Source of the DNA: Rubrobacter tropicus
GTDB taxonomy: Bacteria; Actinomycetota; Rubrobacteria; Rubrobacterales; Rubrobacteraceae
Reading direction: 5' to 3'
Assembly (NCBI RefSeq): GCF_011492945.1
Contig: NZ_CP045119.1
Coordinates: 2,232,001-2,296,000, forward strand
Length of the DNA stretch: 64,000 nt
This document shows, piece after piece, positions 7,752 through 28,290 of the stretch. The position numbers and the translations under genes were made by a program. The notes below the pieces were generated by a model. The model was not told the origin of the DNA. It searched no databases and saw only the letters and a list, made by a program, of their open reading frames with translations. Every line of letters starts with the position of its first letter. Within the stretch, counting starts at the first letter, position 1.

Positions 7752-9011
<1,260 letters not shown>

Positions 9012-9059
9012 ACCGTTAAGGCCTCCCCAAGAGCTTGCTGCCGTCTCTCACCAGGTCCC

Positions 9060-9662
9060 TTAGTGGTTCCTGATTATGTTGTCGATGACGCCGTACTCGA
9101 TGCCCTCCTCGGGGCCCATTATGTAGTCGCGGTCGGTGTCGCGCTCGATCCTGTCGTAGTCCTGCCCGGTGTTCTCGGCCAAAATCTCGTTCAGGCGCCG
9201 CTTGGTGTGCACGAGCTCCTTGGCGTGGATCTCCACGTCCGAAGCCTGCCCGGCGAGCCCACCGACGCTCGGCTGGTGAAGGAGGATCCGCGTGTTCGGG
9301 AGCGCGCTCCTCTTGCCCTTGGCGCCGGCCGCGAGCAAGAAGGCCCCCATCGAGGCCGCCATACCCAAGGCGGTCGTGACGATGTCGGGCTTGACGAAGC
9401 GCATCGTGTCGTAGATCGCGAGCCCTGCCGTGACGGAACCGCCCGGGGAGTTTATGTACAGGTTGATGTCCTGCTCCGGATCCTCGCTCTCGAGGTGGAG
9501 GAGCTGGGCCATTATGGCGTTCGCGACCTGGTCGTCCACGGGGGTGCCGAGGAAGATGATCCTGTCCTTCAACAGCCGCGAGTAGATGTCCATGGCCCGT
9601 TCGCCGCGCGGGCTCTGCTCGATTACGTAGGGTATGACGCCCTGGGGATCTTGGTAGCTCAT
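9060..9662 (-). CDS. clpP: ATP-dependent Clp protease proteolytic subunit
   Basis: 200 residues. Serine protease subunit of the ClpXP barrel. The catalytic Ser is in GMAASMGA (about residue 104), the His in RILLHQPS (about 129) and the Asp in RIERDTDRD (about 175). The oxyanion-loop [11 protein letters not shown] is intact. The N-terminal region ([20 protein letters not shown]) is typical of ClpP1-type proteins. Its ATG overlaps the tig stop by 4 bases, so the two genes are coupled. Only one clpP is seen in this window. Confidence 0.97.
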
Positions 9663-11104
9663 TCTTTCTCCTTTTGATCGTCGTCTGCTGTTCCGGCCTC
9701 GACGGTCGCCTCGACCGCGGCCTCGCCGCCCTCGGGCTCCTCCTCGGCGCCCGGCGTCTCCCCGCCTGCCTCCATGCCCTCGTCTGAGGCATCCTCCTCC
9801 GGCATCTCGACCGGGGTGGCGTTCTCGGCGAGAAAGTCGAGTGCTTTCTGGCGGGAGATCTCCTCCTGCAGGAGCGAGTAGGTCCCGTTCGCCTTCATGG
9901 TCTCGGCTATCTCTTCCGGGGCCCGGTCGGATTCTTCGGCGAGGTGCCCGATCTCGTGCATCACCGCCTCGTCGTCGGCGGTTATGTTCTCGGCCACGGC
10001 CACGGCGTCGAGCACGAGCTCCTTCTTGACCGTGTCCTCGGCCTCGGGCCTGACGCGCTGCTCGAACTCGTGGTGGTTGGAGCCGGCGAGCTGGTAGTAC
10101 TGCTGGGGGTCCATCCCCTGCGCCCGCACGCTCCGCTCGAAGCTCTCTACCATCTCGTGCGCCTTCTCGTGAGCCATCACGTCGGGCACCTCGACCTCGG
10201 CGTTGCTCGCGACCACGTCGAGCACCCGCGCCCTGAACTCGCCGGAGACGCGTTGCTCCGCGGCCTGCTCCAACTGCTCCCGGATGGCCGCCCGCAGCTC
10301 GTCCAGCGTCTCGAACTCGCTCGCCTCCTGGACGAACTCGTCGTCGAGCTCGGGGAGGTCGCGCTCCTTGATCTCCTTGAGGTGAACGTTGAAGAGCACG
10401 GACTGGCCCTGCAACGAAGCCTCCGCGTAATCTGCGGGGAACGTTACGCCGAACCGCTTGCGCTCGTCCGGCTTCATCCCGACCACGTTGTTCTCGAAGT
10501 CTTCGAGAAGCTCGCCGCGCCCGATCTCCAGCATGTAGTCCTCGGCCTGGCCGCCTTCGAGCGGCTCGCCGGTCGTCATGTTCTCGCCGGCAAAGTCGAT
10601 GATGGCGAAGTCGCCCTCCGCCGCCGGCCTGTCCTCGACCGCCGCAAGCGTCGCGAACTGCCCGCGCAACTCCTCGAGTTGGGCGTCGACCTCTTCGTCG
10701 GAGACCTCGACCTCGCGCTTCGGGACCTCGACGCCCTTGTAGTCGCCGAGTTTGGCCTGGGGGCGCACCTCGACGGTCGCGGAGAACTTGAAGCCGCTCT
10801 CCTCGCTCAAGGGGTCGTCGAAGTTGATCTCGGGCCGGTCGATGGGCCTCAGGTCGGTCTCGACCACGGCCTCCGAGTACCAGCTGGGGAGGGCCTCCTG
10901 GAGGGCCTCCATCATGATGTAGTCGCGCCCGAGGCGGTTCTCGATCACACGCCGCGGCGCCTTGCCCGGCCTGAAGCCGGGGACCCGCACCTGGCGGCCG
11001 AGCTCCCTGACCTTCGCCTCGACGCCCTTGCGGACGGCGTCGGGGGGCACCTCGACGTCCAGACGCACCTTGTTCTCCTCGAGCTTCGTAACGTTAGCCG
11101 TCAT
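9659..11104 (-). CDS. tig: Trigger factor, ribosome-associated chaperone
   Basis: 481 residues. The N-terminal ribosome-binding domain carries the signature around [25 protein letters not shown]-type peptidyl-prolyl isomerase domain follows ([12 protein letters not shown]...[17 protein letters not shown]), then a long helical C-terminal domain. The last 50 residues are an acidic Glu/Gly/Ala tail, longer than in many trigger factors and probably disordered. The ATG is preceded by GGAGGGT. It heads the tig-clpP-clpX-valS run, and tRNA-Leu lies 61 bases upstream on the same strand. Confidence 0.96.
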
Positions 11105-13991: not shown

Positions 13992-14867
13992 GTGGCGAAA
14001 GACAAGTCGAAGAGTAAGAAGTCTGGGAGGGCCAACGGCAACGCCGGCGGTCGGATGGCGCAGGGCATGGCGGAGGCGGACGGGAAAGTCGGTAAGCTCA
14101 AGAAGCGGGATTACGAGTCGGAGCTGAAGAGGCTGCAGGTGGAGTTGGTCAAGCTCCAGGAGTACATCAGGGAGAAAGGGCTGCGGGTGGTGGTCGTGTT
14201 CGAGGGCAGGGACGCGGCCGGCAAGGGCGGGACCATCAAACGCATCAACGACGCCATGAACCCGCGCGTGTGCCGCATCGCCGCGCTTCCGGCACCGAGC
14301 GACAGGGAGCGCACCCAGTGGTACTTCCAGCGTTACGTGGCCGAGCTGCCGGCCGCCGGCGAGATGGTCCTGTTCGACCGCTCCTGGTACAACCGGGCGG
14401 GCGTCGAGCGCGTCATGGGCTTCTGCAACGAGGAGGAGTACCAGGAGTTCCTGCGTTCGACCCCCCTCTTCGAAGAGATGCTCCTCCGCTCGAACATAAA
14501 GCTCATCAAGTACTGGTTCTCCGTCTCCGACGACGAGCAGGAGCGCCGCTTCCAGGACCGCCTCTCCGACCCCAGCAAGCACTGGAAGCTGAGCCCCATG
14601 GACCTCGAATCCCGCAGGCGCTGGGTCGACTACTCCCGCGCAAAGGACGTAATGTTCGCCCGCACGGACACGGATCTATCCCCCTGGTGGGTCGTCGAGG
14701 CGGACAACAAAAGGCGGGCGCGCCTCAACACCATCTCCCACCTCCTCTCCAGCATCCCCTACGAATACGAGCCGAAGCCGCCACTCGAACTGCCCGAACG
14801 CCAGGACGATCCCGACTACGTCCGCCCACCCCGCGAGACCCAGCGCTTCATTCCGCAGGTCTACTAG
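13992..14867 (+). CDS. ppk2: Polyphosphate kinase 2
   Basis: 291 residues. Uses polyphosphate to phosphorylate nucleoside diphosphates, or the reverse. Walker A is VFEGRDAAGKGGTIKRI, Walker B is VLFDRSWYNRAGVERVMGF, and the lid region holds SDDEQERRFQDR and DLESRRRWVDYSRAKD. This arrangement matches single-domain class I PPK2. A basic Lys/Arg/Gly-rich N-terminal tail of about 35 residues precedes the fold. The start is GTG with a perfect AGGAGG 7 bases upstream. The promoter should lie in the 138-base gap shared with the divergent lipase gene. Confidence 0.93.
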   Translation: MAKDKSKSKKSGRANGNAGGRMAQGMAEADGKVGKLKKRDYESELKRLQVELVKLQEYIREKGLRVVVVFEGRDAAGKGGTIKRINDAMNPRVCRIAALPAPSDRERTQWYFQRYVAELPAAGEMVLFDRSWYNRAGVERVMGFCNEEEYQEFLRSTPLFEEMLLRSNIKLIKYWFSVSDDEQERRFQDRLSDPSKHWKLSPMDLESRRRWVDYSRAKDVMFARTDTDLSPWWVVEADNKRRARLNTISHLLSSIPYEYEPKPPLELPERQDDPDYVRPPRETQRFIPQVY

Positions 14868-15260
14868 CGGGAGCGCACGCCCGGATCAAGGGGTCCCGCA
14901 GAACACCCTGGAACCTCGCAGGCCACTTGCAGTAGACGTGGCCCAGCTTCTTGGTCTGGCATCACATTTTCCCTGCGATGAAAGGGTGACCGACGGGACC
15001 CGAAACTCGCAGCCTTCGGAGCCACAAAACCAACCGGAGATTCCGGAGTGTTTCGTCGGGTCCTGCGGGGTCCAGCAATCTGGTTTCCGAGGATTTGGTG
15101 TAGGGTGCTCGGCCATTGATCATCCCCGCCTTTTTCACCTCTACGAAGCGTCTGCTCGTGTGGCAACTGCGGGGTTCTGGACGTACCAACCTCGGTGCTC
15201 GCGAGACGGCGTTCTTGTTCAACGGGGAGTTTCGGCCCGGAGGCGCCGCGTGTATCGGTA
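14868..15260. other. Gene-free stretch containing a tRNA-His fragment
   Basis: 393 bases between ppk2 and the ureohydrolase gene with no convincing reading frame. The only recognisable item is the degenerate 3' half of tRNA-His at 14984-15027. Both flanking genes end here (ppk2 from the left, the ureohydrolase on the minus strand from the right). Confidence 0.6.
14984..15027 (-). repeat. Degenerate tRNA-His 3' half, possible att site
   Basis: The block matches the 3' half of the intact tRNA-His at 28216-28290, in the same orientation. 14984-14997 is identical to 28215-28228 (14 bases) and 15013-15027 is identical to 28243-28257 (15 bases, through the GTG anticodon). The T-arm between them has a few mismatches and an indel. 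Similarity ends just past the anticodon. This is the geometry left when a tyrosine recombinase inserts an element into a tRNA 3' end. Confidence 0.6.
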
Positions 15261-16253
15261 TCAGGTCCGGGGGCGTCGTGAAGCGCTTCTGGCATGGAAC
15301 GCCAGAGCGTCCAGCAAGATGCGCACGGCTGTGGTGGTTGTTGTATTCGTGGGATCGAGGGTGGGTGCGACCTCGACGAGGTCCATCCCAAGCAGTCCTC
15401 GGGCGGAGACCCGGCGGACTATCGCAAGGATCTCCCTTGTGGTCATTCCTCCTGTGCCCGGCACGCCCGTGCCGGGTGCGTACGCGCCGTCGAGGGCGTC
15501 GATGTCTACACTGAGGTAGACGCCATCCGTGCCACGACCCACCGCATGCAGCACGCGATCTAGCGCCCTCTTCAGACCGTTCTCGAGGATGTCTTCGAGC
15601 CAGACGATCTCTATGCCGTTTTGGCGGCAGTACTCCAGCTCACTGCGAGGGTTGAGCCAGCCGGTCGCCCCGATTATGGCGATGTTTTGCGGAGGAAACC
15701 CGGCCTCTACGGCGCGCGTGATCGGGCAACAGTGGTTGAGGGTCTCTCCGCCGACGTCCGACGCCGTGTCGAGGTGCGCGTCGACCAGGACCAGGGAGGG
15801 ATTCGTGTGGCGCTCGGCCACGGCCCTCACGGCTGGGATGGTAACGGAATGATCTCCCCCCAACGTGACGGGCAGCGCGCCGGCGGCGAGGATGCTACCG
15901 ATGTCCTTCTGGGCGCTCCCAAACGTCTTCTCCGCGTTGGCGAGCGTGGTGGCGGCGTCGCCACAGTCGACGGGGTTCAGGGCATCGACGAGGTCGATAT
16001 TTAGGGTTGCGTTGTAGCTCAGAGCCTGCAAGGAAGCTTCCCGGATGCCACGCGGGCCGTAGTTCGCGCCGGAGCGGCTGATGACCGTGGAATCCCACGG
16101 GATGCCGTAGATCGCAGCTCCGGCCCCGGCGGCTCTCAGTTGCTCCGCGTCGGGCGGTACGTGGGGGAGCCTCAGGAAGGAGCTGGCCAACCCGGAGTGG
16201 AGAAGGCTCGTCCACATGGTTGAGTCGGTGTTGTTCTGCTCAGGGGTGCTCAC
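15261..16253 (-). CDS. Ureohydrolase (agmatinase/guanidinase family)
   Basis: About 330 residues from the GTG at 16253, which has AAGGAG at good spacing. Mn-dependent (or Ni-dependent) hydrolase releasing urea from a guanidino compound. The metal ligands are all visible: TLGGDHSVTIP, LVLVDAHLDTASD and LSVDIDALDGAYAPGTGVPG. The substrate cannot be told by eye: agmatine, guanidinobutyrate, guanidinopropionate and guanidine are all options. It is the last gene of the operon that starts with a second ureohydrolase at 20620. The upstream frame to 16325 lies in the deacetylase remnant, so I do not extend the start. Confidence 0.85.
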   Translation of the reverse strand: MSTPEQNNTDSTMWTSLLHSGLASSFLRLPHVPPDAEQLRAAGAGAAIYGIPWDSTVISRSGANYGPRGIREASLQALSYNATLNIDLVDALNPVDCGDAATTLANAEKTFGSAQKDIGSILAAGALPVTLGGDHSVTIPAVRAVAERHTNPSLVLVDAHLDTASDVGGETLNHCCPITRAVEAGFPPQNIAIIGATGWLNPRSELEYCRQNGIEIVWLEDILENGLKRALDRVLHAVGRGTDGVYLSVDIDALDGAYAPGTGVPGTGGMTTREILAIVRRVSARGLLGMDLVEVAPTLDPTNTTTTTAVRILLDALAFHARSASRRPRT

Positions 16254-16254
16254 T

Positions 16255-16632
16255 CTATGCTCCTTCTTCGGAATCCTGAAGCACTGCGTCCGCCAGCCGG
16301 TCTGTCTCAGAGAATCGGACGTCACCGCACTCTCTGGCGAAGCTTATGAAGCCTTCTGTGGCCCGGATAAGGGAAGGTCGCTCGCCCGGAAAAGGATGGC
16401 ACGTCAGCACACAGAGGGCTCCCGTCTGCCGCATCAGGTCAAGTTCGCCCTTCCAAGTTAGCCACGAAGTCGAGGTTGCGAGGCACACCGACCTTCGGGC
16501 CGTGGGCCCGGCGGGACATGGTCCAGAGGTCCTCGGCGAGGATCGGCGCCTCGGCGTCGAAGTCGAAGGTCGACATTGCCACGGCCCTGGCGCTTTTACG
16601 CCGATCGCCCGTTCTGCGCTTGGTCCCGCTCA
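16255..16632 (-). pseudogene. Polysaccharide deacetylase remnant
   Basis: Two pieces of a polysaccharide-deacetylase-like protein remain in different frames. The N-terminal piece starts with an ATG at 16632 overlapping the upstream SDR stop and reads MSTFDFDAEAPILAEDL and HGPKVGVPRNLDF, then stops at 16439. The C-terminal piece, ending at 16255, reads ALCVLTCHPFPGERPS and ARECGDVRFSETDRLAD, the family's usual end. Known relatives are near 300 residues, so the whole central catalytic barrel appears deleted, with a frame change at the join near 16460. The remnant still lies in place between the SDR and the ureohydrolase. The family assignment rests on recognition of the two ends. Confidence 0.7.
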
Positions 16633-17403
16633 TGCCCAACTCCTCGTGGTGCCGCCGTTGGGCTGTAGGACCTGGCCTACGAAGGCGGCTGAATCGGCGG
16701 CGGCGAGAAACGCGACCGTGGCGGCTATCTCCTCCGGGCTTCCGATCCTTCCGACGGGTGTCTGTGAAGCGTAGCGGGCCTTTATCTCGCCCATCGAGAC
16801 GCCAGCGTCCCTGGCGTCCTGCTCGAGTTGAGGGGTGTCTACGACGCCGGGGGCGACCACGTTGGTGATGATGTTCTCGGGGGCGAGTTCCCTGCCGAGG
16901 GTCTTGCCCAGGGAGATCAGGCCAGCCTTGGACGCGGCGTAGGCGGTGGCGTTCGGCCACCCGCTGACGCCCCACTCGGAGCTCACGATGACGATGCGTC
17001 CGCCGCCGAGGCGTCTCATGTGAGGCAGGACCGACCGGACCAGGTAGAAGGTTCCCGAGAGGTTGGTGTCGATCTGACGCCACCAGTCGGCCGGGTCCTG
17101 TTCGAGGAAGGGTCCCATGGACATGTACGCGGCGTTGGCGACGAGCACGCCGATCGGGCCCGCGCTCTGTTCGACGGCCGAGACCATCTCTTCGACGGCG
17201 GCCGGGTCCGACACGTCCGCTATCGCCGGCACCCCGCCGCAAGCGTCTACCACTTCGTCTATCTTCCCTGCTGGTTCGCGGCCGTTTACCGCGACCACGG
17301 CGCCTTCGGCGGCGAGGTGCAGGGCCGTCGCGCGGCCTATCCCCCCTCCGGCTCCGGTAACCAGGGCCACGGTTCCTTCCAGGCGGCCGCCAATTTTCTC
17401 CAT
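16630..17403 (-). CDS. SDR family oxidoreductase
   Basis: 257 residues. Classical short-chain dehydrogenase: the NAD(P) motif is VTGAGGGIGRATALHLA, followed by ADVSD, VLVANAAYMS (NAA in place of NNAG), catalytic Ser in IVIVSSEWG and YAASKAGLISLGKTLG for Tyr and Lys. NVVAPGVVDTP and a C-terminal GQVLQPNGG close the fold. The substrate is unknown. Its ATG overlaps the stop of a second SDR (17403), and its own stop overlaps the deacetylase remnant, so it is deep inside one operon. Confidence 0.88.
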   Translation of the reverse strand: MEKIGGRLEGTVALVTGAGGGIGRATALHLAAEGAVVAVNGREPAGKIDEVVDACGGVPAIADVSDPAAVEEMVSAVEQSAGPIGVLVANAAYMSMGPFLEQDPADWWRQIDTNLSGTFYLVRSVLPHMRRLGGGRIVIVSSEWGVSGWPNATAYAASKAGLISLGKTLGRELAPENIITNVVAPGVVDTPQLEQDARDAGVSMGEIKARYASQTPVGRIGSPEEIAATVAFLAAADSAAFVGQVLQPNGGTTRSWA

Positions 17404-18110
17404 CAGATCACCGCCCCGGCGTTCGGGGAGAGGACCTGCCCGCAGAAGAAGCCGCCCTCATCGACCAGGAACAGCACGGCCTCCGCGACCTCGTCGGTGC
17501 GCACCAGACGGCGTAGCGGTAAGGTCTCCAGGAAGGCTTTGTCCCGCCAGGGCGAGGTCGGTTCGAGCAAGGGGGTGTCTGTTGGTCCGGGGGCCACGCA
17601 GTTGACGCGGACGCCCCTGTCTGCCACCTCGACGGCCAGGCTTTTCGTGAACCCAAGGATGGCGCCCTTCGCCGCGGCGTAGTGCGCGTCTTCCGCGCCG
17701 CCGCCAAGGGCTAGCTCGGACGAGACCGTGATTATGGTGCCGCCCCCCGCCTCCAGCATGCCAGGCAGCACGGCGGCGCAGGCGTTGCAGGTTCCGCCGA
17801 GGTGGACCTCCAGCATCCGCCGCCATTTCTCGGGGGTGATCTCCTGGGCGGGAAGCATCTCGTAGTAGCCGGCCACGGTCACGAGTACGGAGACCGGGCC
17901 GAGTTCGTCCTGTACCCGGCCCAGCGCGTTCAGGACTGCGCCACGGTCGGAGACGTCGGCGACGAGCGAGAGGTCCGTATCGGATTCCTGGAGGTCGAGG
18001 CCCGCGACCCTCCGGCCGGTCGCGGAGAGCCGGGCCGAGATGCTGGCGCCGATGCCGCTCGCCGCCCCGGTGACGACGGCCGCGCCGCCGCCGCTGCCGG
18101 AGGTAGTCAT
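17403..18110 (-). CDS. SDR family oxidoreductase
   Basis: About 235 residues from the ATG at 18110, which follows the permease TAG by one base and has GGAGAG upstream. The cofactor motif is VTGAASGIGASISARL, then VADVSD, VTVAGYYEM where NNAG is usual, catalytic Ser in TIITVSSELALGG, and YAAAKGAILGFTKSLA for Tyr/Lys. It ends GQVLSPNAG, parallel to the neighbouring SDR, so the two are probably an old duplication. Likely role: oxidation of an alcohol or aldehyde intermediate in the same pathway as the ureohydrolases; this is inference from the operon. Confidence 0.87.
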   Translation of the reverse strand: MTTSGSGGGAAVVTGAASGIGASISARLSATGRRVAGLDLQESDTDLSLVADVSDRGAVLNALGRVQDELGPVSVLVTVAGYYEMLPAQEITPEKWRRMLEVHLGGTCNACAAVLPGMLEAGGGTIITVSSELALGGGAEDAHYAAAKGAILGFTKSLAVEVADRGVRVNCVAPGPTDTPLLEPTSPWRDKAFLETLPLRRLVRTDEVAEAVLFLVDEGGFFCGQVLSPNAGAVI

Positions 18111-18111
18111 G

Positions 18112-19614
18112 CTACGGTCTCTCCGTTCCCGGGCGTTCAGCAGTCGCGGCGACGCCATCTCGCTCGTTGTGTGGGGTCAGGGCGATATTGCCCCGGAGCG
18201 GCAAGAAGGAGGCCGCGCCGAGGACGCCAAGCGCCACGATCATGATCAGGACGCCATAGTTCTGGTACCAGGGCAAGTCCGGGGTGCGCGGCCAGGCTAT
18301 GTTGGTTATCTGGAAGGCAACCCATATCACGGCCAGCACGTTGACGACCAGACCCAGGCCGCCGATGGAGAACCTTCCCGGGCGCCAGCGTCCGGAGAGA
18401 CGGGCTATCAGGGCGGCGAGCAGGGGAAACAGGAAGGCTACGTAGAAGCCGCCGGTGGTGAAGCTGACGAGGGTGCCGTAGATGTCCGAGTTGGCTAGCA
18501 GGAAGAGCGCCGTCGTGACGACGGAGGTGAGGAGGATGGCGTTTATGGGGAGGCGGTCTTCGGTCGCGAGCCGTCCCAGAAAGCCCGAGGCAGGCAGCGC
18601 GCGGTCGCGGGCGAAGGCGAAGATCACGCGAGAGACGGAGGCCTGCAGGGCCATGAAGCTGGCGAGGAACCCGACGACGATCACGGCGAAGAGGGGTTTC
18701 GAGATGCCCGCGCCGAGCTTCGCGGCCAGGGTATCTGTTATCGGGTCGCCGACGGTGCCCGCGACGACATCGCCTATGTTCGGTATGGCGAGGATAATTG
18801 CGAGCCCGGCGTACATGACGATGAGGGCGACGCAGATCAACGACAGCAGCACGGCCTTTGGCACGTCGCGGTTCGGGTCTTCGACTTCCTCGGCCATCGC
18901 CCCGGCGCTCTCGAATCCCACGAATGCCCAGCCTATAAAGGCCACGGCGGCGAGGAAGGGACCCAAGAGGTAGGAGCCCTCGCCGGCCGTACCGAACGCG
19001 TCGAAGAGGACCGAGAAGGAATTCTCGCGGTAGAAGAGGAGCAGGACCGTCCCAATAATTATGCTGCCCAGGATCTCGGCGGCTATGCTCAGGTAGACCA
19101 TGAGCTTCAAAACCCTGCGTCCGACCGTGTTCGCCAGCGTACCGACTATCGTGACGCCGAGCGCGAACAACACCAGGGTCAGCGGGCTCGGGTCCTGCAC
19201 GTCGAAGATCGCGGCCAGGAAGCCCGCGGCGCCGTAGGCCACGGCGGACATGGCGATCACGAGGGTCCACATGTACGCCCAGCCGGCGAACCAGCCGAAA
19301 CCGTTGCCCATGATCTGGCGCGACCACTGGTAGACGCCGCCGGCGAGCGGCCAGATGGAGGCCAGCTCGGCGAAGATCAGGGCGACGAGCATCTGGCCGG
19401 CCAGCACCACGAGAAAACCCCACCAGAAGGCCGGCCCGCCGGCCGCGAAGGAGAGCGCGAAGATGCCGTACAACGCGACGATGGGCGAGATGAAGGCGAA
19501 GGCCAGCGCGAAGACAGACCAGAGGTTGAAGCCGCGTTTGAGCGTCTGCTCGTAGCCGTAGCGGGCGAGCTCCTGCGCCGCGCTCGTGTTGTCTCTTGCT
19601 CTTTGCTCCTCCAT
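18112..19614 (-). CDS. APC superfamily amino acid / amine permease
   Basis: 500 residues with about 12 membrane helices. The N-terminal region has YEQTLKRGFNLWSVFALAFAFISPIVALYG and the consensus LASIWPLAGGVYQWSRQIMG, typical of APC-family amino acid and GABA/choline-type permeases. The FVGFESAGAMAEEVEDPNRDVPKA motif is also characteristic. The substrate is probably an amino acid or guanidino/amine compound supplied to the adjacent ureohydrolases. The start has AAAGGGG upstream and lies 40 bases after the first ureohydrolase gene. Confidence 0.9.
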   Translation of the reverse strand: MEEQRARDNTSAAQELARYGYEQTLKRGFNLWSVFALAFAFISPIVALYGIFALSFAAGGPAFWWGFLVVLAGQMLVALIFAELASIWPLAGGVYQWSRQIMGNGFGWFAGWAYMWTLVIAMSAVAYGAAGFLAAIFDVQDPSPLTLVLFALGVTIVGTLANTVGRRVLKLMVYLSIAAEILGSIIIGTVLLLFYRENSFSVLFDAFGTAGEGSYLLGPFLAAVAFIGWAFVGFESAGAMAEEVEDPNRDVPKAVLLSLICVALIVMYAGLAIILAIPNIGDVVAGTVGDPITDTLAAKLGAGISKPLFAVIVVGFLASFMALQASVSRVIFAFARDRALPASGFLGRLATEDRLPINAILLTSVVTTALFLLANSDIYGTLVSFTTGGFYVAFLFPLLAALIARLSGRWRPGRFSIGGLGLVVNVLAVIWVAFQITNIAWPRTPDLPWYQNYGVLIMIVALGVLGAASFLPLRGNIALTPHNERDGVAATAERPGTERP

Positions 19615-19654
19615 CCCAGCCCCTTTCCTCGGAAACGTTACACGGATTCTTCGT

Positions 19655-20620
19655 TCACGGTGCCGGCTCGATGCTTCTGGTCCCGGCGAGCAGGCTCAAG
19701 AACTCGAAGGCGACGTTCGCCGCGAGGAGCGACGTGATCTGGCCCGGACCGTCGTACTGCGGGTAGACCTCGACCACGTCGCAGCCGACGATGCGCAGTC
19801 CGGCAAGCCCGCGCACGAACTCCTGCGCCTCGCGGCCGGAGAAGCCTCCGATCTCCGGCGTGCCGGTGCCCGGCGCGTGGGCAGGATCCACGAAGTCCAC
19901 GTCGAACGAGACGTAGGTCTTCGCGTCGCCGACCCTCTCGCGAATAAGTCCGATCGTCTCGGGAATTCCCCGCTTCCTGACGTCGTCGGTGGTTACGAGA
20001 TCCAGGCCCAGGCTCCGCGAGGCGTCGAGATCCCCGGCGTCGTAGAGCGAACCGCGCATCCCTACCTGGATGGACCGGTCGGCACGAAGCAGGCCTTCTT
20101 CCGCCGCCCTGCGGAATACCGTCCCGTGGTTGTACTTCTTGCCGAAGTACTCGTCCCAGGTGTCGGCGTGGGAGTCGAACTGCACGAGGGCCAGAGGCCC
20201 GTGGACGGAGGCCGCCGCGCGGAGCTCCGGCAGGGCTATGGAGTGGTCGCCACCGAGGACTATGGGAACTACGCCGGCGCGGTGTATCTCCTCGAGGCCT
20301 CCCTTGATGGTCTCGTAGCTCTCCTCTATGAAGCCAGGAACCACGGGCACGTCGCCAAAGTCTATGACGGACAGGTGATCGAAGATGGAGATACGCTGGG
20401 ATGGGTTGTAGGGCCTCAGGAGGTGGGAGATGCTGCGGATGCTCTCCGGCCCGAAGCGGGCGCCGGCCCGAAAAGAAGCGCCGGTATCGAAGGGGACCCC
20501 GACGACTGCGGCGTCGGCGTTCTCGAGGTCGCGCACGTTCGGAAGCCGCATGAACGTGCGCACGCCCGAGAAGCGCGGGATCGCGAAGGAATCGGCGGGT
20601 TCGTAGCGGGTCGTGCTCAT
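19655..20620 (-). CDS. speB: Agmatinase-type ureohydrolase
   Basis: 321 residues from the ATG at 20620, preceded by GGGGAGGAAG. Metal-binding motifs are VLGGDHSIALPE, VQFDSHADTWDEYFG and YVSFDVDFVDPAHAPGTGTPE, the canonical agmatinase/guanidinobutyrase set. The protein is closer to classical SpeB than the ureohydrolase at 15261. It is the first gene of a minus-strand operon (ureohydrolase, permease, two SDRs, remnant, second ureohydrolase) and is divergent from the PucR-type regulator. A longer open frame to 20986 overlaps the regulator gene and is rejected. The symbol is by similarity; agmatine is not proven as substrate. Confidence 0.85.
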   Translation of the reverse strand: MSTTRYEPADSFAIPRFSGVRTFMRLPNVRDLENADAAVVGVPFDTGASFRAGARFGPESIRSISHLLRPYNPSQRISIFDHLSVIDFGDVPVVPGFIEESYETIKGGLEEIHRAGVVPIVLGGDHSIALPELRAAASVHGPLALVQFDSHADTWDEYFGKKYNHGTVFRRAAEEGLLRADRSIQVGMRGSLYDAGDLDASRSLGLDLVTTDDVRKRGIPETIGLIRERVGDAKTYVSFDVDFVDPAHAPGTGTPEIGGFSGREAQEFVRGLAGLRIVGCDVVEVYPQYDGPGQITSLLAANVAFEFLSLLAGTRSIEPAP

Positions 20621-20834
20621 CTTCCTCCCCGATCCGGCAAACCGACGACGGCGCCACAAGGGTCCGTCCGTCTCAATCTTTCTGTTGCTCCGGATATACC
20701 GGCAAGGGCCCGGGTTCCGGCCACAGGTCTCACCCCAAGTCTTCTTGCCGCATTCTGTCCCCGAGGGCTCTGCGACGCAATACTCCGGGTGTATAAATTT
20801 GAACAATTGTCTCATACGGTAGTATGAAAGGGTC
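20621..20834. promoter_or_regulatory. Divergent promoter region with two palindromes
   Basis: 214 bases between the ureohydrolase operon and the pucR-type gene. It is AT-richer than its surroundings near 20790-20827. It holds the 8-base perfect palindrome ACAATTGT at 20803-20810, and TCATAC (20812-20817) with GTATGA (20822-20827) around a 4-base spacer. A TATAAA hexamer lies at 20792-20797. These are candidate operator and promoter elements for the PucR regulator acting on both directions; the assignment is inference. Confidence 0.5.
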
Positions 20835-22361
20835 ATGACCGTTACGGTGTCAGAGTTGCTGGAGATGCCAGATCTGAGGACGCGGGTTTTCGCGGGTGAG
20901 TCCGGGCTCGGGCGGCCCGTAAGCTGGGCGCACGTCTGCGAGTTACCTGATCCGACGGAGTATCTCGCTTCAGGCGAGTTGCTCATGACGGTGGGTTACA
21001 CCGTCCCTGAGGGTGGCGGGGCGCAGGTCTCGTACGTGGAGCGCCTGGTGGATGCGGGGCTCAGCGGGCTTCTGATCGCGGAGAAGATGCACGCGCCGGC
21101 GTTATCGGAGGAGATGTCCGAAGCGGCGGATCGCCTCTCGTTTCCGGTGCTGCTCACGGCCTACGACGTTCCTTTCACCGCGATCTCGCGGGCCGTGGCG
21201 GAGGCGAACCGGGGTGGTGAGCACGCGAGGCTCGTGCAGGCGGTGAGGGTCTACGAGACGGCGCGCCTGGCGGTGAGTGGAAGCTCTTTCGGCAAGAGCC
21301 TGATGGCGCGCCTCGGCGAGGTTACGCGCTGCGAGCTTTTCGTGCTCGACCCGGAACGGGGACGCTCGCTGTTGCCCGACGTACCCGGGGCGCCCCTCGG
21401 CGTCACCGAAGCGCTCACGCAAGAGGTCAGGAGCAGGTCCCAGCCCATGCCCGCCGTGCTGCGCCTGGGCGTGGGTCCCCGACAGGCCATTGCGCTGCAC
21501 GTTCCGGCCTCCAGGCCGGCGGCGCTGGTCGCGATCTCCGGGGCAGATGTCTCCCCGGACCTGTCTGTACTGCGTCACGTGGCGACCGTTGCGGCCCTGG
21601 AGGTCGAGAAGAGGATCGCGGACAGCGAGCGAAGGCGACGTCTGGGAGCGGAGCTTCTGGCCGGGCTTGTGGACGGCCGTATTGGCACCGAGACGGCATC
21701 TCATCTGCTCTCCGAATGGGGGCTGGCCGAGGAGCCGCGAGTCCTGGCAACGTGCGACGGAGAAGGCGGGTCGGACGGAAGGGCAGATCTACACGTGCGG
21801 CTGGAGGACAGGGGCATCCCCCACCTGCTATTGCGCCGCGCCCTTCTGACGGCGTTACTTCCGGCCACGACCGGGGCGATCGATGCATTCCGCGAAGAAG
21901 TGGACGAAGTGTACCCGGTAGGATTGAGCGATCCCCTGTTGAGCCCATCGCGCGTTCCGGACGCCTATCGCGAGGCCCGTTGGGCCCTGGAGAGCGTGAG
22001 GGCCTCCGGTGGACGGGTGGCCAGGTACGGCGACGCCACGTTCTCGCCGTTCCTGCCAAGAGACCTCGACGAGTCGGGGCGGGTGGTACAGCACGTGCTC
22101 GGGACAATTCTGGCCTACGACGCGTCGCACGGCTCCCAGCTCGTGGCGTCGTTGGCCACCTTTCTCCGGCGGAATCGTTCCTGGAGGCGGGCGGCGGAGG
22201 AACTGCACGTACACAAACAGACGCTCGTTTACAGGATGCGCCGCGTCGAGGAGTTGACGGGCCGACGGCTGGACCGGACGGAGGACGTCGCTGAGTTATG
22301 GTTCGCGCTCAAGGCCGCGCAGGCCTCGGGAATGCTCAACACCGCTGGCGAACGTGGATGA
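20835..22361 (+). CDS. PucR family transcriptional regulator
   Basis: 508 residues. The N-terminal PucR domain (VTVSELLEMPDLRTRVFAG...LLMTVGYTVP) is followed by a central GGDEF-like/CdaR region, and the C-terminal helix-turn-helix is SWRRAAEELHVHKQTLVYRM with RRVEELTGRRLDRTEDVAE, the HTH_30 signature. Members usually activate purine, allantoin, GABA or guanidine-related catabolic genes. It is divergent from the ureohydrolase operon, so it most probably controls it. Start ATG at 20835 with AAAGGG close upstream. Confidence 0.9.
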   Translation: MTVTVSELLEMPDLRTRVFAGESGLGRPVSWAHVCELPDPTEYLASGELLMTVGYTVPEGGGAQVSYVERLVDAGLSGLLIAEKMHAPALSEEMSEAADRLSFPVLLTAYDVPFTAISRAVAEANRGGEHARLVQAVRVYETARLAVSGSSFGKSLMARLGEVTRCELFVLDPERGRSLLPDVPGAPLGVTEALTQEVRSRSQPMPAVLRLGVGPRQAIALHVPASRPAALVAISGADVSPDLSVLRHVATVAALEVEKRIADSERRRRLGAELLAGLVDGRIGTETASHLLSEWGLAEEPRVLATCDGEGGSDGRADLHVRLEDRGIPHLLLRRALLTALLPATTGAIDAFREEVDEVYPVGLSDPLLSPSRVPDAYREARWALESVRASGGRVARYGDATFSPFLPRDLDESGRVVQHVLGTILAYDASHGSQLVASLATFLRRNRSWRRAAEELHVHKQTLVYRMRRVEELTGRRLDRTEDVAELWFALKAAQASGMLNTAGERG

Positions 22362-22425
22362 AAACGCAGGGTTCTTCGAGGCCGCGCGGCGTATCGGATA
22401 CGGGTCCCAGGCTTACGGGCGAGTG

Positions 22426-23100
22426 CTAGCCGCGCAGGTGGGCCAGCACCGCCAGCACGCGGCGGTGGTCGGCCTCGCCCTGGGGAAGCCCGAGCTTGCC
22501 GAAGATGCTCTTCACGTGCTTCTCCACGGCGCCCCCGGTGATGAAGAGCGCCTTCGCTATCGCCTGGTTGGTACGTCCCTCGGCCACGAGGGCCAAGACC
22601 TCGCCCTCGCGCGGGGTGAGGGAGGCGAGGCCTTCGTTGTGCTTCCTTCGGGCCAGGAGCTGGCCCACCACCTCCGGATCGAGCACGGTCCCACCGGCGC
22701 CCACGGTCTCGAGCGCCGAGACGAACTCGGCGACGTCGGCCACGCGGTCCTTGAGCAGGTAGCCCGTGCCCTCCATCCCGGACTCGAGCAGTTCCCTGCC
22801 GTAGCGTTCCTCGACGTACTGGGAGAGCACCAGCACCGGGAGGCCGGGCCTGCGCCTCCTCGCCTCCAGGGCGGCCTTGAGGCCCTCGTCTTTGAAGCCC
22901 GGCGGCATGCGCACGTCCACGACGGCCACGTCGGGGGGTTGCTCCTCGATGATCCTCAAGAGGCCCGGCCCGTCGCCCGCCTCGGCGATGACCCGGTGAC
23001 CGGCGTCGGTTATGAGGCGCGCGATGCCCGCCCGCAAGAGCCCCGAGTCCTCGGCGATCGCGACCCTCAGGGATGCTTTCCTCGCGGCGTCCTCAGCCAT
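22426..23100 (-). CDS. NarL-type response regulator
   Basis: 224 residues. The receiver domain begins LRVAIAEDSGLLRAGIARLI, with the phospho-acceptor Asp in PDVAVVDVRMPP and the conserved Lys in GYLLKDRVAD. The LuxR-type helix-turn-helix is LTPREGEVLALVAEGRTNQAIAKALF. Its ATG lies 8 bases inside the end of the kinase gene, so the pair is translationally coupled and forms one two-component system. Target genes are not evident. It converges with the pucR-type gene. Confidence 0.94.
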   Translation of the reverse strand: MAEDAARKASLRVAIAEDSGLLRAGIARLITDAGHRVIAEAGDGPGLLRIIEEQPPDVAVVDVRMPPGFKDEGLKAALEARRRRPGLPVLVLSQYVEERYGRELLESGMEGTGYLLKDRVADVAEFVSALETVGAGGTVLDPEVVGQLLARRKHNEGLASLTPREGEVLALVAEGRTNQAIAKALFITGGAVEKHVKSIFGKLGLPQGEADHRRVLAVLAHLRG

Positions 23101-25740: not shown

Positions 25741-26821
25741 TACACCGTCCACACGCCGGACGGCCCAAAGCGCAGGACCATCTACGGCAAAAAGCACCGA
25801 GAGGTCGAAAGCAAGCTAAACGAGGCGCGTGCCAACGCAGATAAGGGGATCTTCTTCGACGCCGACGACTTCAAGGTGGCCGAGTGGCTCGATTCGTGGC
25901 TCCGCGATTGCCTCAAGCCGCTCGTCGACGCCGGCAAGATGACGCACAGCACCTTCATCCGCTACGAGGGCATCGCGAACAACCATCTCAAGCCGGCGCT
26001 CGGTCCCCGCAAGCTCAAGGATCTCACGCGCGCCGAAGTCCGGTGGCTCTACAACGAGAAGGGCAAGACGCTCTCCGCGCGATCCGTCGACTACGTCCAC
26101 GTCACCTTGCAGAAGGCTCTCTCGCAAGCCGTGCGCGACGACCTGATCTACCGCAATGTCGCGGAAGGCGAGCGGCCCCGTAGCAGCCGCGAGAGACGGT
26201 CGGACGGCGTTAAGGCGCTCTCCCCCGTCCAGGTACGCGTCCTGCTCGACGCCGCGCGGGGCACGCGTAACGAGGCGCTGTACGTCGTCGCCCTGCACAC
26301 CGGCTTGCGTCAGGGCGAGTTGTTGGGGCTCAAGTGGTCCGACGTGGACCTCGACGCGGGCAAACTGTCCGTGCGCCGTGCCCTCAAGGTCACCGACCAC
26401 GGCCTAGATTTCGGCCCCACGAAGAACAAGGCGAGCCGCCGGCGTGCCCCTCAACAAGACCGCGGCGGCTGCTCTGCGGGCTCACAGGGCGCGTCAGAAC
26501 GAAGAGCGCATCGCAGCGCGGATCTGGCGCGACGCCGATCTAGTCTTCCCGAACCGCGTAGGCGGCCCGATGGACCACAACAACCTGTACTACCGAGACT
26601 ACAAGACGCTCCTAAAGCGCGTCGGGCTCGACGGCTACACGTTCCACGCGCTGCGTCACACGTTCGCCACGGCGCTATTCAACCAGGGCAAGCACCCCAA
26701 GCGCGTCCAATCGCTGCTAGGTCACTCGTCGATCACGCAGACGATGGACACCTACTCGCACCTGATAGACGACATAGGCGGCGACGCGGTAGACGGGCTC
26801 GATGAGATGTTCGGAGGCTGA
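25741..26821 (+). pseudogene. Tyrosine recombinase (phage-type integrase), degraded
   Basis: The coding signal starts YTVHTPDGPKRRTIYGKKHRE and continues through an AP2-like/SAM-like N-terminal arm (VAEWLDSWLRDCLKPLVDAG). The catalytic domain has HTGLRQGELLGLKWSDVDL (Arg I), HALRHTFATALF (His-x-x-Arg), LLGHSSITQTMDTYSHL (His and Tyr nucleophile). A frame change near 26440 separates ASRR from the continuing VPLNKTAAAAL. Upstream of 25741 the frame has no ATG, GTG or TTG start back to a stop at 25624, so the N-terminus is also damaged. It points toward tRNA-His at 28216 and is the likely integrase of the element that used that tRNA. Confidence 0.85.
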
Positions 26822-26828
26822 ACGAAGG

Positions 26829-28091
26829 CTAGGAATGATACTTTAGTGCTCGATCCATCAGCCAGCGCCTTCTACGCAATATCGACATATCTGCAAGGGG
26901 AAGTTGCATCATCTCGGCGACTTCCCCGATGCTGGCGAAGTCGGGAGCACTGAAAACGTGGAAGAGTAGTACGCGTTCCACGTAGCGCTTCAGTTGGTAG
27001 AGCGACGTTTCTATGTCTTCGGGCGCAAAACCGGCATGAACGGTTCTGTTTCGATACTTCATCAGATGCTTGAGCACTTGTCGGTGAAAATCGCGCTCGT
27101 CTCGATGCCAGAAGAACAACGCTCGCTTAACGGTAGTATCGTTGGGCGCGTTCGTGGTATCTGTAAGATATTCGAGTAGGCTCCACAATTGTACGAAGGC
27201 GCTATTCCACTCGCGACTATCCAGAATCCTTGTGTATCGCGTTATGGCGCCTTCTATATCTTGCCTATATTGGCTCTTAGACAAGTATTTACGGACAAGT
27301 TTCTCGAAATCGCGTAGCTCATCTTGTGCGTTGTGCAGGTTCAAATTCTTAAGCGGCTCGACGTATCCGGGGTCATACCAGTAGCTCTCAGTGGCGAGCC
27401 TGCCGTCAGGCTCGTGCAGGGAGTGTATGGGTCCCAGGTGCAGCACGTTTACCGGCTTGCGCTTCCCCATTGACGTTCGCGCAGCTTTGTTGAGACGCAA
27501 ATTCCAGATACCTCGAAGAAGGTCTAGCGCCCCAATTGACTGTTCGTACGCGGCGCTTATGGAGCGAGCGCGGACGGAGACTCGGACCGGCGAGTACCCG
27601 TTGAACATCGACCACCACTTAGGAGGCTCTCCGAAAATATCGCGTCTACCAAGCTCCCTGGCTTTCTCGTGCTCTGTAGCAAAACGCTTTGGAAGATATC
27701 TGCCGAACGTGATCCGATGCCCCGAGACACTGGTGTTTCTGAGTGGGTTAGGCGGCCTAATCGAAATGCTGGTAGCCAGCACGAACCGACGTTCATCGAG
27801 TTCCTGGAAAGCACCTTCGCGCCTGTTTATCTCGGCAATAAGCGCGTCAGAGGTCATGTCATCGACGCGCCCCAGCGCGAGGACCGACCTATAGATGATT
27901 CGGCTCCGATCAGTTTCGGTCATGTCGTGCGCAAACTTGACGCAAGAATGCAGAACGGCGGTAACGTCTTCAAACGGGTTCCATCCCTCGAAGCCCTCGA
28001 ACTCCCCCGTATCCTCGTTGCGCTTTCGGCTAACTTCTAGCTCTTGAAGCAACAGTTTGACATCGTATTCCCCAGCCCACTTAGCGCACAT
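26829..28091 (-). CDS. Unknown protein with HEPN-like C-terminus
   Basis: 420 residues from the ATG at 28091, which has GGGGAGAG upstream. I do not recognise the N-terminal 270 residues. The last third is helical, with LWSLLEYLTDT and the sequence LMKYRNRTVHAGFAPEDIE; the R-N-x-x-x-H at about 347-352 matches the R-x4-6-H ribonuclease motif of HEPN domains, in an ApeA-like setting. HEPN proteins are often antiphage or toxin RNases. A 60-base sample (27001-27060) is 50% GC, far below the neighbours, which suggests transfer. It lies between the integrase and tRNA-His, where cargo genes usually sit. Function is inference. Confidence 0.6.
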   Translation of the reverse strand: MCAKWAGEYDVKLLLQELEVSRKRNEDTGEFEGFEGWNPFEDVTAVLHSCVKFAHDMTETDRSRIIYRSVLALGRVDDMTSDALIAEINRREGAFQELDERRFVLATSISIRPPNPLRNTSVSGHRITFGRYLPKRFATEHEKARELGRRDIFGEPPKWWSMFNGYSPVRVSVRARSISAAYEQSIGALDLLRGIWNLRLNKAARTSMGKRKPVNVLHLGPIHSLHEPDGRLATESYWYDPGYVEPLKNLNLHNAQDELRDFEKLVRKYLSKSQYRQDIEGAITRYTRILDSREWNSAFVQLWSLLEYLTDTTNAPNDTTVKRALFFWHRDERDFHRQVLKHLMKYRNRTVHAGFAPEDIETSLYQLKRYVERVLLFHVFSAPDFASIGEVAEMMQLPLADMSILRRRRWLMDRALKYHS

Positions 28092-28215
28092 TGGCTTGGC
28101 TCTCCCCAGTGGTTCCCGGCCCGGTGATGTACAGGTGATGTATTTCGTCGCCCGGCAACTCGACCACACTTACTACTCATCCGCGTATTCGGCTTATGTA
28201 TGCGGGATTAGAGGG

Positions 28216-28290
28216 GGTGACCGACGGGGCTCGAACCCGCGACCTTCGGAGCCACAATCCGATGCTCTACCTGACTGAGCTACGGCCACC
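28216..28290 (-). tRNA. tRNA-His (anticodon GTG)
   Basis: Minus-strand acceptor GTGGCCG pairs with CGGTCAC, with an extra G at -1 opposite a C73 discriminator, the histidine identity pair. The anticodon arm TCGGA-TTGTGGC-TCCGA gives anticodon GTG. The T arm is GCGGG-TTCGAGC-CCCGT, its last pair a G-T wobble. CCA is not encoded. A degenerate copy of its 3' half lies at 14984-15027, and an integrase lies just beyond its 3' end. Confidence 0.96.

Follow-up and report, generated by a model that had tools for sequence, protein, structure and literature searches.

Two ureohydrolases of different kind in a partly decayed operon of Rubrobacter tropicus predicted to act on guanidino compounds

Organisation of the locus

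The locus described here occupies positions 15261-22361 of a 64,000-nucleotide stretch of Rubrobacter tropicus DNA (NCBI RefSeq assembly GCF_011492945.1, contig NZ_CP045119.1, positions 2,232,001 to 2,296,000), which we refer to as the window. It holds six intact genes, five on the minus strand (UreA, the short-chain dehydrogenases (SDRs) SDR2 and SDR1, an APC-family permease and UreB) and one, for a PucR-family regulator, on the plus strand. A preliminary description of the sequence had proposed a minus-strand operon with two ureohydrolases, an APC permease and two SDRs opposite a PucR regulator; all six genes were found at the place and in the orientation given there. What it had missed is a broken CE4-family deacetylase gene (pda) between SDR2 and UreA. 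The gene content of the operon, the break in pda, the conserved neighbours, the clade memberships and the active-site residues reported below were established by computation. The features are as follows.

20835-22361, plus strand: PucR-family regulator, divergent from the operon (PF07905, 2.3e-29; PF13556, 1.3e-19)
19655-20620, minus strand: UreB, ureohydrolase, predicted guanidino-acid hydrolase (3-guanidinopropionase-like; PF00491, E = 3.9e-91, 305.8 bits)
18112-19614, minus strand: APC-family amino acid/amine permease (PF13520, 1.5e-47)
17403-18110, minus strand: SDR1, short-chain dehydrogenase (PF00106, 7.8e-44)
16630-17403, minus strand: SDR2, short-chain dehydrogenase (PF13561, 1.1e-52)
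about 16255-16633, minus strand: pda pseudogene, CE4/polysaccharide-deacetylase family, two gene ends only, in different frames
15261-16253, minus strand: UreA, second ureohydrolase, single-gene (PF00491, E = 1.2e-76, 258.3 bits)

Both ureohydrolases score above the PF00491 gathering score of 22 bits. The 4.58-Mb genome contains five PF00491 genes; if these were placed at random, one of the other four would lie no more than 5 kb from UreB about 1% of the time. The ends of SDR2 and SDR1, and those of SDR1 and the permease gene, touch or nearly touch, and 40 bp separate the permease gene from UreB; this spacing is consistent with a single transcript. The raw open reading frames of UreA and UreB are over-long (from 16325 and 20986, respectively), and homology together with ribosome-binding-like sequences favoured start codons at 16253 (GTG) for UreA and 20620 (ATG) for UreB. 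The top NCBIfam model of the regulator, PmfR, was far below its cut-off (201.8 against 800 bits), and that of the permease, TIGR03428 (permease of urea carboxylase systems), reached 210 bits, under the cut-off of 740. A simple promoter and terminator scan of the locus gave nothing above shuffled sequences, and an Rfam scan of 14500-22500 found neither a guanidine riboswitch nor any other RNA family at gathering threshold.

Related operons

The operon has a close counterpart on plasmid 1 of R. radiotolerans RSPS-4 (NZ_CP007515), where PucR lies opposite genes for a CoA-acylating methylmalonate-semialdehyde dehydrogenase, alanine dehydrogenase (ald), an aminotransferase, a ureohydrolase annotated as speB, a permease, two SDRs and a polysaccharide deacetylase, in that order. 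Identities with the window are 72% for UreB, 64% for the permease (47% in its tail), 74% for SDR1 and 82% for SDR2, and PucR matches in two pieces at 64% and 76%. This cluster differs from that of the window in carrying the semialdehyde dehydrogenase, ald and aminotransferase genes upstream, in its intact deacetylase and in having no UreA within the 18.9 kb read around it. Its PucR gene is annotated as two coding sequences, and in both copies (L189, L123) its permease aligns with that of the window as two overlapping pieces; we read these as frame breaks or sequence errors.

Operons of the same type were found in further genomes. A short contig (G014) carries UreB-APC-SDR1-SDR2-deacetylase, and a genome of another family (G368) has PucR opposite APC-SDR1-SDR2-UreB-deacetylase, with touching or overlapping genes and identities of 44-59%. 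In G009 the order is aminotransferase (72%), permease, S58 peptidase, UreB, APC, SDR1 and SDR2, without a deacetylase behind SDR2. The S58-family gene lies directly before UreB (L178:3219-4103); this family includes beta-aminopeptidases, which would fit a beta-alanine theme. A genome of the same genus (G002) has PucR (70%) opposite UreB-APC-SDR1 and the start of SDR2 on contig C155; an SDR2 fragment on a second contig is followed by other genes, neither deacetylase nor UreA. Counterparts of SDR1 in these five operons have 59-74% identity, and SDR2 matches at E ≤ 1e-70 were present in 6 of 396 genomes of the phylum, the window's own included. The divergent PucR gene, already pointed out in the preliminary description, is shared by the orthologous operons of R. 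radiotolerans and G368. UreB stands without UreA in all three operons that were followed over a longer stretch (L189, L209, L178), and among the operons seen this was commoner than pairing with UreA.

Two other statements of the preliminary description fared less well. The proposal that the SDRs oxidise the ureohydrolase products was not borne out, since relatives of SDR1 and SDR2 occur with the deacetylase and no ureohydrolase close by, on a 7.8-kb contig (L212) and in L216; SDR1 and SDR2 are therefore more likely to take part in a step in which the deacetylase is also involved. The remark that no transaminase or urease is nearby holds as far as our searches reached, but the lack of a transaminase is no general feature, since the R. 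radiotolerans operon has an aminotransferase. The sole match to that aminotransferase in the window genome at E ≤ 1e-60 has 41% identity and lies about 1 Mb away. A urease alpha subunit was not found in this genome (97.66% complete), and urea carboxylase gave only partial matches below cut-off, some with stops.

UreB is a predicted guanidino-acid hydrolase

The best solved relatives of UreB were the 4-guanidinobutyrase GbuA (3nio, 8.6e-85) and the 3-guanidinopropionase GpuA (3nip, 1.5e-83) of P. aeruginosa, whereas the agmatinases listed reached 2.1e-56 or weaker. UreB is of the same fold family as these two enzymes and, on alignment, retains both catalytic residues, His and Glu, and the full set of metal ligands (two His, four Asp). 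All 10 UreB-type rows have Arg at the position of GbuA R72 and the GpuA-type residue, Tyr, at the GbuA M161/GpuA Y157 column. As described in the relevant passage of PMC9772407, R72 of GbuA caps the substrate carboxylate from the neighbouring subunit, and a passage of PMC10833137 names M161 and Y157 as substrate-recognition residues. In the tree UreB falls in an 18-row group (95/91) with GpuA, GbuA and agmatinases; it lies outside the group of five rows (100/99) in which both SpeB references (E. coli, Burkholderia) fall, and shares a wider group with it. Unlike GpuA and GbuA, it belongs to an actinobacterial clade of its own in our sample, for which the tree shows no specific sister relation to either, and its gene stands in an operon with SDRs and a CE4 hydrolase.

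By standard biochemistry, an aminotransferase and a CoA-acylating semialdehyde dehydrogenase convert beta-alanine to acetyl-CoA. Taken together with the Arg and the Tyr, the presence of these two genes in the operons of relatives makes 3-guanidinopropionate the likeliest substrate of UreB, with 4-guanidinobutyrate as a less likely candidate. Two homologs (83% and 80%) of the R. radiotolerans operon semialdehyde dehydrogenase are encoded elsewhere in the window genome. At 3.275 Mb it also carries a UreB paralogue (76%) with homologs of Ald, aldehyde dehydrogenase and aminotransferase. In the region of this paralogue (L170, G000:C1:3266000-3285900, and G000:C1:3263800-3269009) we observed urea-carboxylase-like pieces, some with stops, about 6-12 kb away.

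The paralogue could be taken to mean that the locus serves ordinary agmatine or arginine catabolism, with UreA and UreB as agmatinase or guanidinobutyrase isozymes that arose by recent duplication or act by gene dose; both proteins also score above the cut-off of the NCBIfam agmatinase equivalog TIGR01230 (199.9 and 210.5 bits, against 174.3). We regard this as unlikely: UreA and UreB fall in different clades, which speaks against a recent duplication, the capping Arg of UreB is absent from UreA, and UreB is far closer to GbuA and GpuA than to agmatinases. That the two ureohydrolases are distinct, as the preliminary description had it, is thus upheld by well-separated clades and by an Arg found in UreB only, and two different guanidino substrates are the natural reading of these differences.

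UreA is a cousin of metformin hydrolase

In the alignment UreA, too, lacks none of the six metal ligands and has the catalytic His and Glu. Its closest known systems include metformin hydrolase (MfmAB/MetCaCb/MefH) and the dimethylguanidine hydrolase DmgH. In the tree, which did not include DmgH, the UreA clade was sister to MfmA, MfmB and G152_U1 (98/96) and not inside the MfmA/MfmB clade, and it lay outside the SpeB-reference group mentioned above. The grouping was kept with one or two of MfmA, MfmB and G152_U1 left out (100/98 for MfmA alone, 93/93 for G152_U1 alone). All seven rows of the UreA clade have the catalytic His and the six ligands, and none has Arg at the R72 column. UreA also differs from metformin hydrolase: MfmA and G152_U1 have Asn in place of the catalytic His, five of the six metal ligands are gone from MfmB, no degenerate beta-subunit gene stands beside UreA (the operon's other ureohydrolase has all ligands and belongs to another clade), and the operon has no HypAB genes.

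The predicted structure of UreA had a mean predicted local distance difference test score (pLDDT) of 88.7, with residues 1-22 unreliable; the alignment used for the prediction held no metformin-hydrolase sequence. On structure comparison the five best entries were metformin hydrolase (Z 43.1-44.5), followed by guanidine hydrolase 7esr (41.2). The match to the metformin hydrolase alpha subunit, the closest fold, had Z 44.5 and a root-mean-square deviation of 1.7 over 306 residues at 28% identity. In Foldseek the first 14 chains were metformin hydrolase alpha and beta subunits, and 7esr came fifteenth.

On sequence search, UreA's top solved match is 7esr, the guanidine hydrolase of Synechocystis (4.3e-54), also with a five-sequence profile, and UreA shares with GdmH (Sll1077) and the Nitrospira guanidinase the absence of the carboxylate-capping Arg. 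Were UreA a GdmH-type enzyme, the operon would handle free guanidine. This we think improbable, because GdmH and the Nitrospira guanidinase (9fek) group at 100/100, apart from UreA, with other proteins of the window's family and phylum (L002, L003, L005, L006, L133), the structure comparison ranks metformin hydrolase over 7esr, no guanidine riboswitch was found in the range scanned, and none of the six genes of the operon and its regulator encodes a HypA/HypB nickel chaperone.

Two ureohydrolase genes in one operon, one of them within the metformin-hydrolase superclade, also call to mind a single heteromeric enzyme like MetCaCb/MefH, and paired arginases with both metal sites intact and of unknown function are noted in part of PMC11271267. 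We consider such a heteromer very improbable for UreA and UreB. According to passages in PMC11399263 and PMC11271267, the known beta subunit lacks four or five of the six ligands, and UreA and UreB keep six. A distance of 3.4 kb, occupied by three intact genes and a broken one, separates the two genes, whereas the mfmAB pair is adjacent; UreB belongs to the guanidino-acid/agmatinase group and not to the MfmB branch; and each is found without the other at other loci. A heteromer as first choice was dropped on account of the intact metal sites, the different clades and the separate occurrence.

Orthologs of UreA (60-62%) were present in four of the 396 genomes besides the window's own, none of them in its family, and 35 other genomes of that family gave no match above 41% identity. 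Relatives with 50-51% identity lie on Sulfitobacter and Paracoccus plasmids; a UreA-only scan of named genomes gave at most 37% identity among the best 80 of 371 loci. In three of the four genomes with orthologs (G186, G234, G351) we take the order to be LacI-like regulator, UreA, nitrilase-like gene and transporter. The fourth ortholog follows what is presumably a homocysteine S-methyltransferase gene and shares a contig with an SDR1-SDR2-deacetylase group about 10-11 kb apart. UreA-ortholog and deacetylase/SDR loci have accessory genes in common, for a metallophosphatase (45-48%), a nucleotidyltransferase-like protein (38-41%) and a permease (33-36%). No UreB was found within 18-19 kb around the UreA orthologs at any of the four loci read. 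That UreA and UreB each occur without the other favours separate substrates. Of the earlier suggestion of sequential or alternative substrates, the part supported by clades, Arg and separate occurrence is that the two substrates differ; the enzymes may act in sequence or as alternatives.

A second pairing was found in G152 (family f8), where a 14-kb contig carries SDR1, a UreB-type hydrolase, a partial SDR, SDR2, TetR and an Mfm-type ureohydrolase, with a convergent deacetylase gene. Together with the window, this places acid-type and metformin-hydrolase-type ureohydrolases with SDRs and a deacetylase in two distant lineages. A search of the 396 genomes with G152_U1 gave matches in five: G152, G234 (the UreA ortholog), G092 and G249 (40%) and G042 (36%). 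At the G092 locus a single weak SDR match lies about 7 kb off, and SDR/deacetylase groups are present on other contigs of G092 (L217) and G042 (L212). Genes upstream of the G042 locus (G042:C104) are presumably hydrogenase genes, judging by their protein starts.

The deacetylase gene is broken

The pda remnant comprises about 64 N-terminal and 59 C-terminal amino acids, read from two short frames that differ from each other. Their counterparts in the intact R. radiotolerans-type gene (G012/L123) are its two ends, with 54% and 62% identity. These ends are 468 bp apart in the intact relative and about 25 bp apart in the window, so that about 440 bp from the middle of the gene are missing, and the HGYSH motif of the intact deacetylase lies within the missing stretch. 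The two fragments alone had no Pfam or NCBIfam match, and it is the comparison with the intact relative that identifies them as deacetylase. That relative belongs to PF01522 and matches 3rxz, 3qbu and PuuE (3cl6), placing the intact protein beside PuuE allantoinase and HpPgdA-type polysaccharide deacetylases. Relatives at E ≤ 1e-45 occur in 13 of the 396 genomes. Those with 52-55% identity in Streptomyces and Nocardia plasmid clusters stand with PucR, a flavin oxidoreductase, a urea-carboxylase-associated protein and an amidase, neighbours that fit nitrogen-compound breakdown. Three clusters of the urea-carboxylase-associated protein, flavin oxidoreductase and CE4 deacetylase on actinobacterial plasmids (L219, L220 and L223, with PucR annotated in the first two) apparently represent an uncharacterised nitrogen-compound pathway.

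The GTG start of UreA is one base past the pda stop codon, which suggests that UreA already lay behind pda, and had probably been fitted into the operon, before the deletion. This bears on whether the locus is simply dying, its pathway inactivated by the broken deacetylase and UreA a transferred passenger without a shared role. The deletion itself, the absence of any UreA ortholog among those listed for the family and the same-genus G002, without deacetylase or UreA after SDR2, could all be read in that way. We nevertheless hold it to be a minor possibility, as the other genes are intact, in G009 and G002 the genes UreB-APC-SDR1-SDR2 are kept although no deacetylase follows SDR2, the position of the UreA start points to its arrival before the deletion, and G152 pairs the same kinds of enzyme.

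Proposed pathway

We consider it rather probable that the locus is a PucR-controlled operon for the catabolism of guanidino compounds, partly decayed and with two unlike ureohydrolases, UreA serving a non-acid guanidine. From sequence and models we infer the substrates, the order of steps, co-transcription, control by PucR, the metal and the oligomeric state. The APC permease would import the guanidino compound or compounds. SDR1, SDR2 and, before its breakage, the CE4-family hydrolase would act on a precursor; the latter, a relative of PuuE allantoinase, may act by ring opening or deacylation. UreB, as a dinuclear-metal ureohydrolase, would cleave the guanidino acid so formed, most likely 3-guanidinopropionate, to urea and beta-alanine. 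Where the operon is complete, the aminotransferase, together with alanine dehydrogenase, and then the CoA-acylating semialdehyde dehydrogenase would convert beta-alanine to acetyl-CoA; these three genes are absent from the window locus. UreA would be a second hydrolase, single-gene and presumably homomeric, for a different guanidine without a carboxylate.

Several observations weigh against this proposal. Besides the agmatinase equivalog scores of both enzymes and the 7esr match of UreA, the tree gives UreB no specific sister relation to GpuA, and its Tyr is also found in Aspergillus guanidinobutyrase, as stated in a passage of PMC10833137. An aminotransferase orthologous to that of R. radiotolerans is not in the window genome, so the beta-alanine route is drawn from relatives. 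MfmA, MfmB and G152_U1 are long branches, for which the tree tool warned of false joins. The UreA orthologs of G186, G234 and G351 stand beside a nitrilase-like gene and not SDRs, and the Mfm-type loci of G092, G249 and G042, with no UreB or deacetylase beside them, argue against universal pairing with UreB. Finally, since pda is broken, the pathway may be partly dead in this genome.

Other features of the window

The GC content of the window is lowest at 26001-28000 (0.584). In this stretch, near tRNA-His (28213-28290), we read site-specific-integrase-like frames in two frames (25876-26805 and 26444-26821, plus strand), and the region (25876-28290) looks like a decayed integrative element. 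On the minus strand, 7752-11104 carries in a row what we take from the translations to be clpX, clpP and tig-like genes.

Significance

Among the papers listed by our literature searches, including those on Rubrobacter with agmatinase or guanidino compounds, we found no description of this operon. Passages of PMC11399263 propose that metformin hydrolase evolved recently from dimethylguanidine hydrolase and also mention two ureohydrolases in tandem in Limnocylindrales; part of PMC11271267 treats paired arginases in which neither site is degenerate as an open question. The routine label "speB: agmatinase", carried by public-record relatives of both UreA and UreB, is put in question by our findings. 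With a single-gene UreA alongside a guanidino-acid hydrolase in an operon that recurs, the metformin-hydrolase clade gains a natural setting that can be tested. A more speculative and less probable reading is that the UreA group may be the natural, single-gene, intact-site stock of the metformin and dimethylguanidine hydrolases, and that in actinobacteria a bifunctional or cyclic guanidine may be dismantled in turn by UreA and UreB with the two SDRs and the CE4 hydrolase. If true, this drug-degrading family of enzymes would have originated in a natural pathway.

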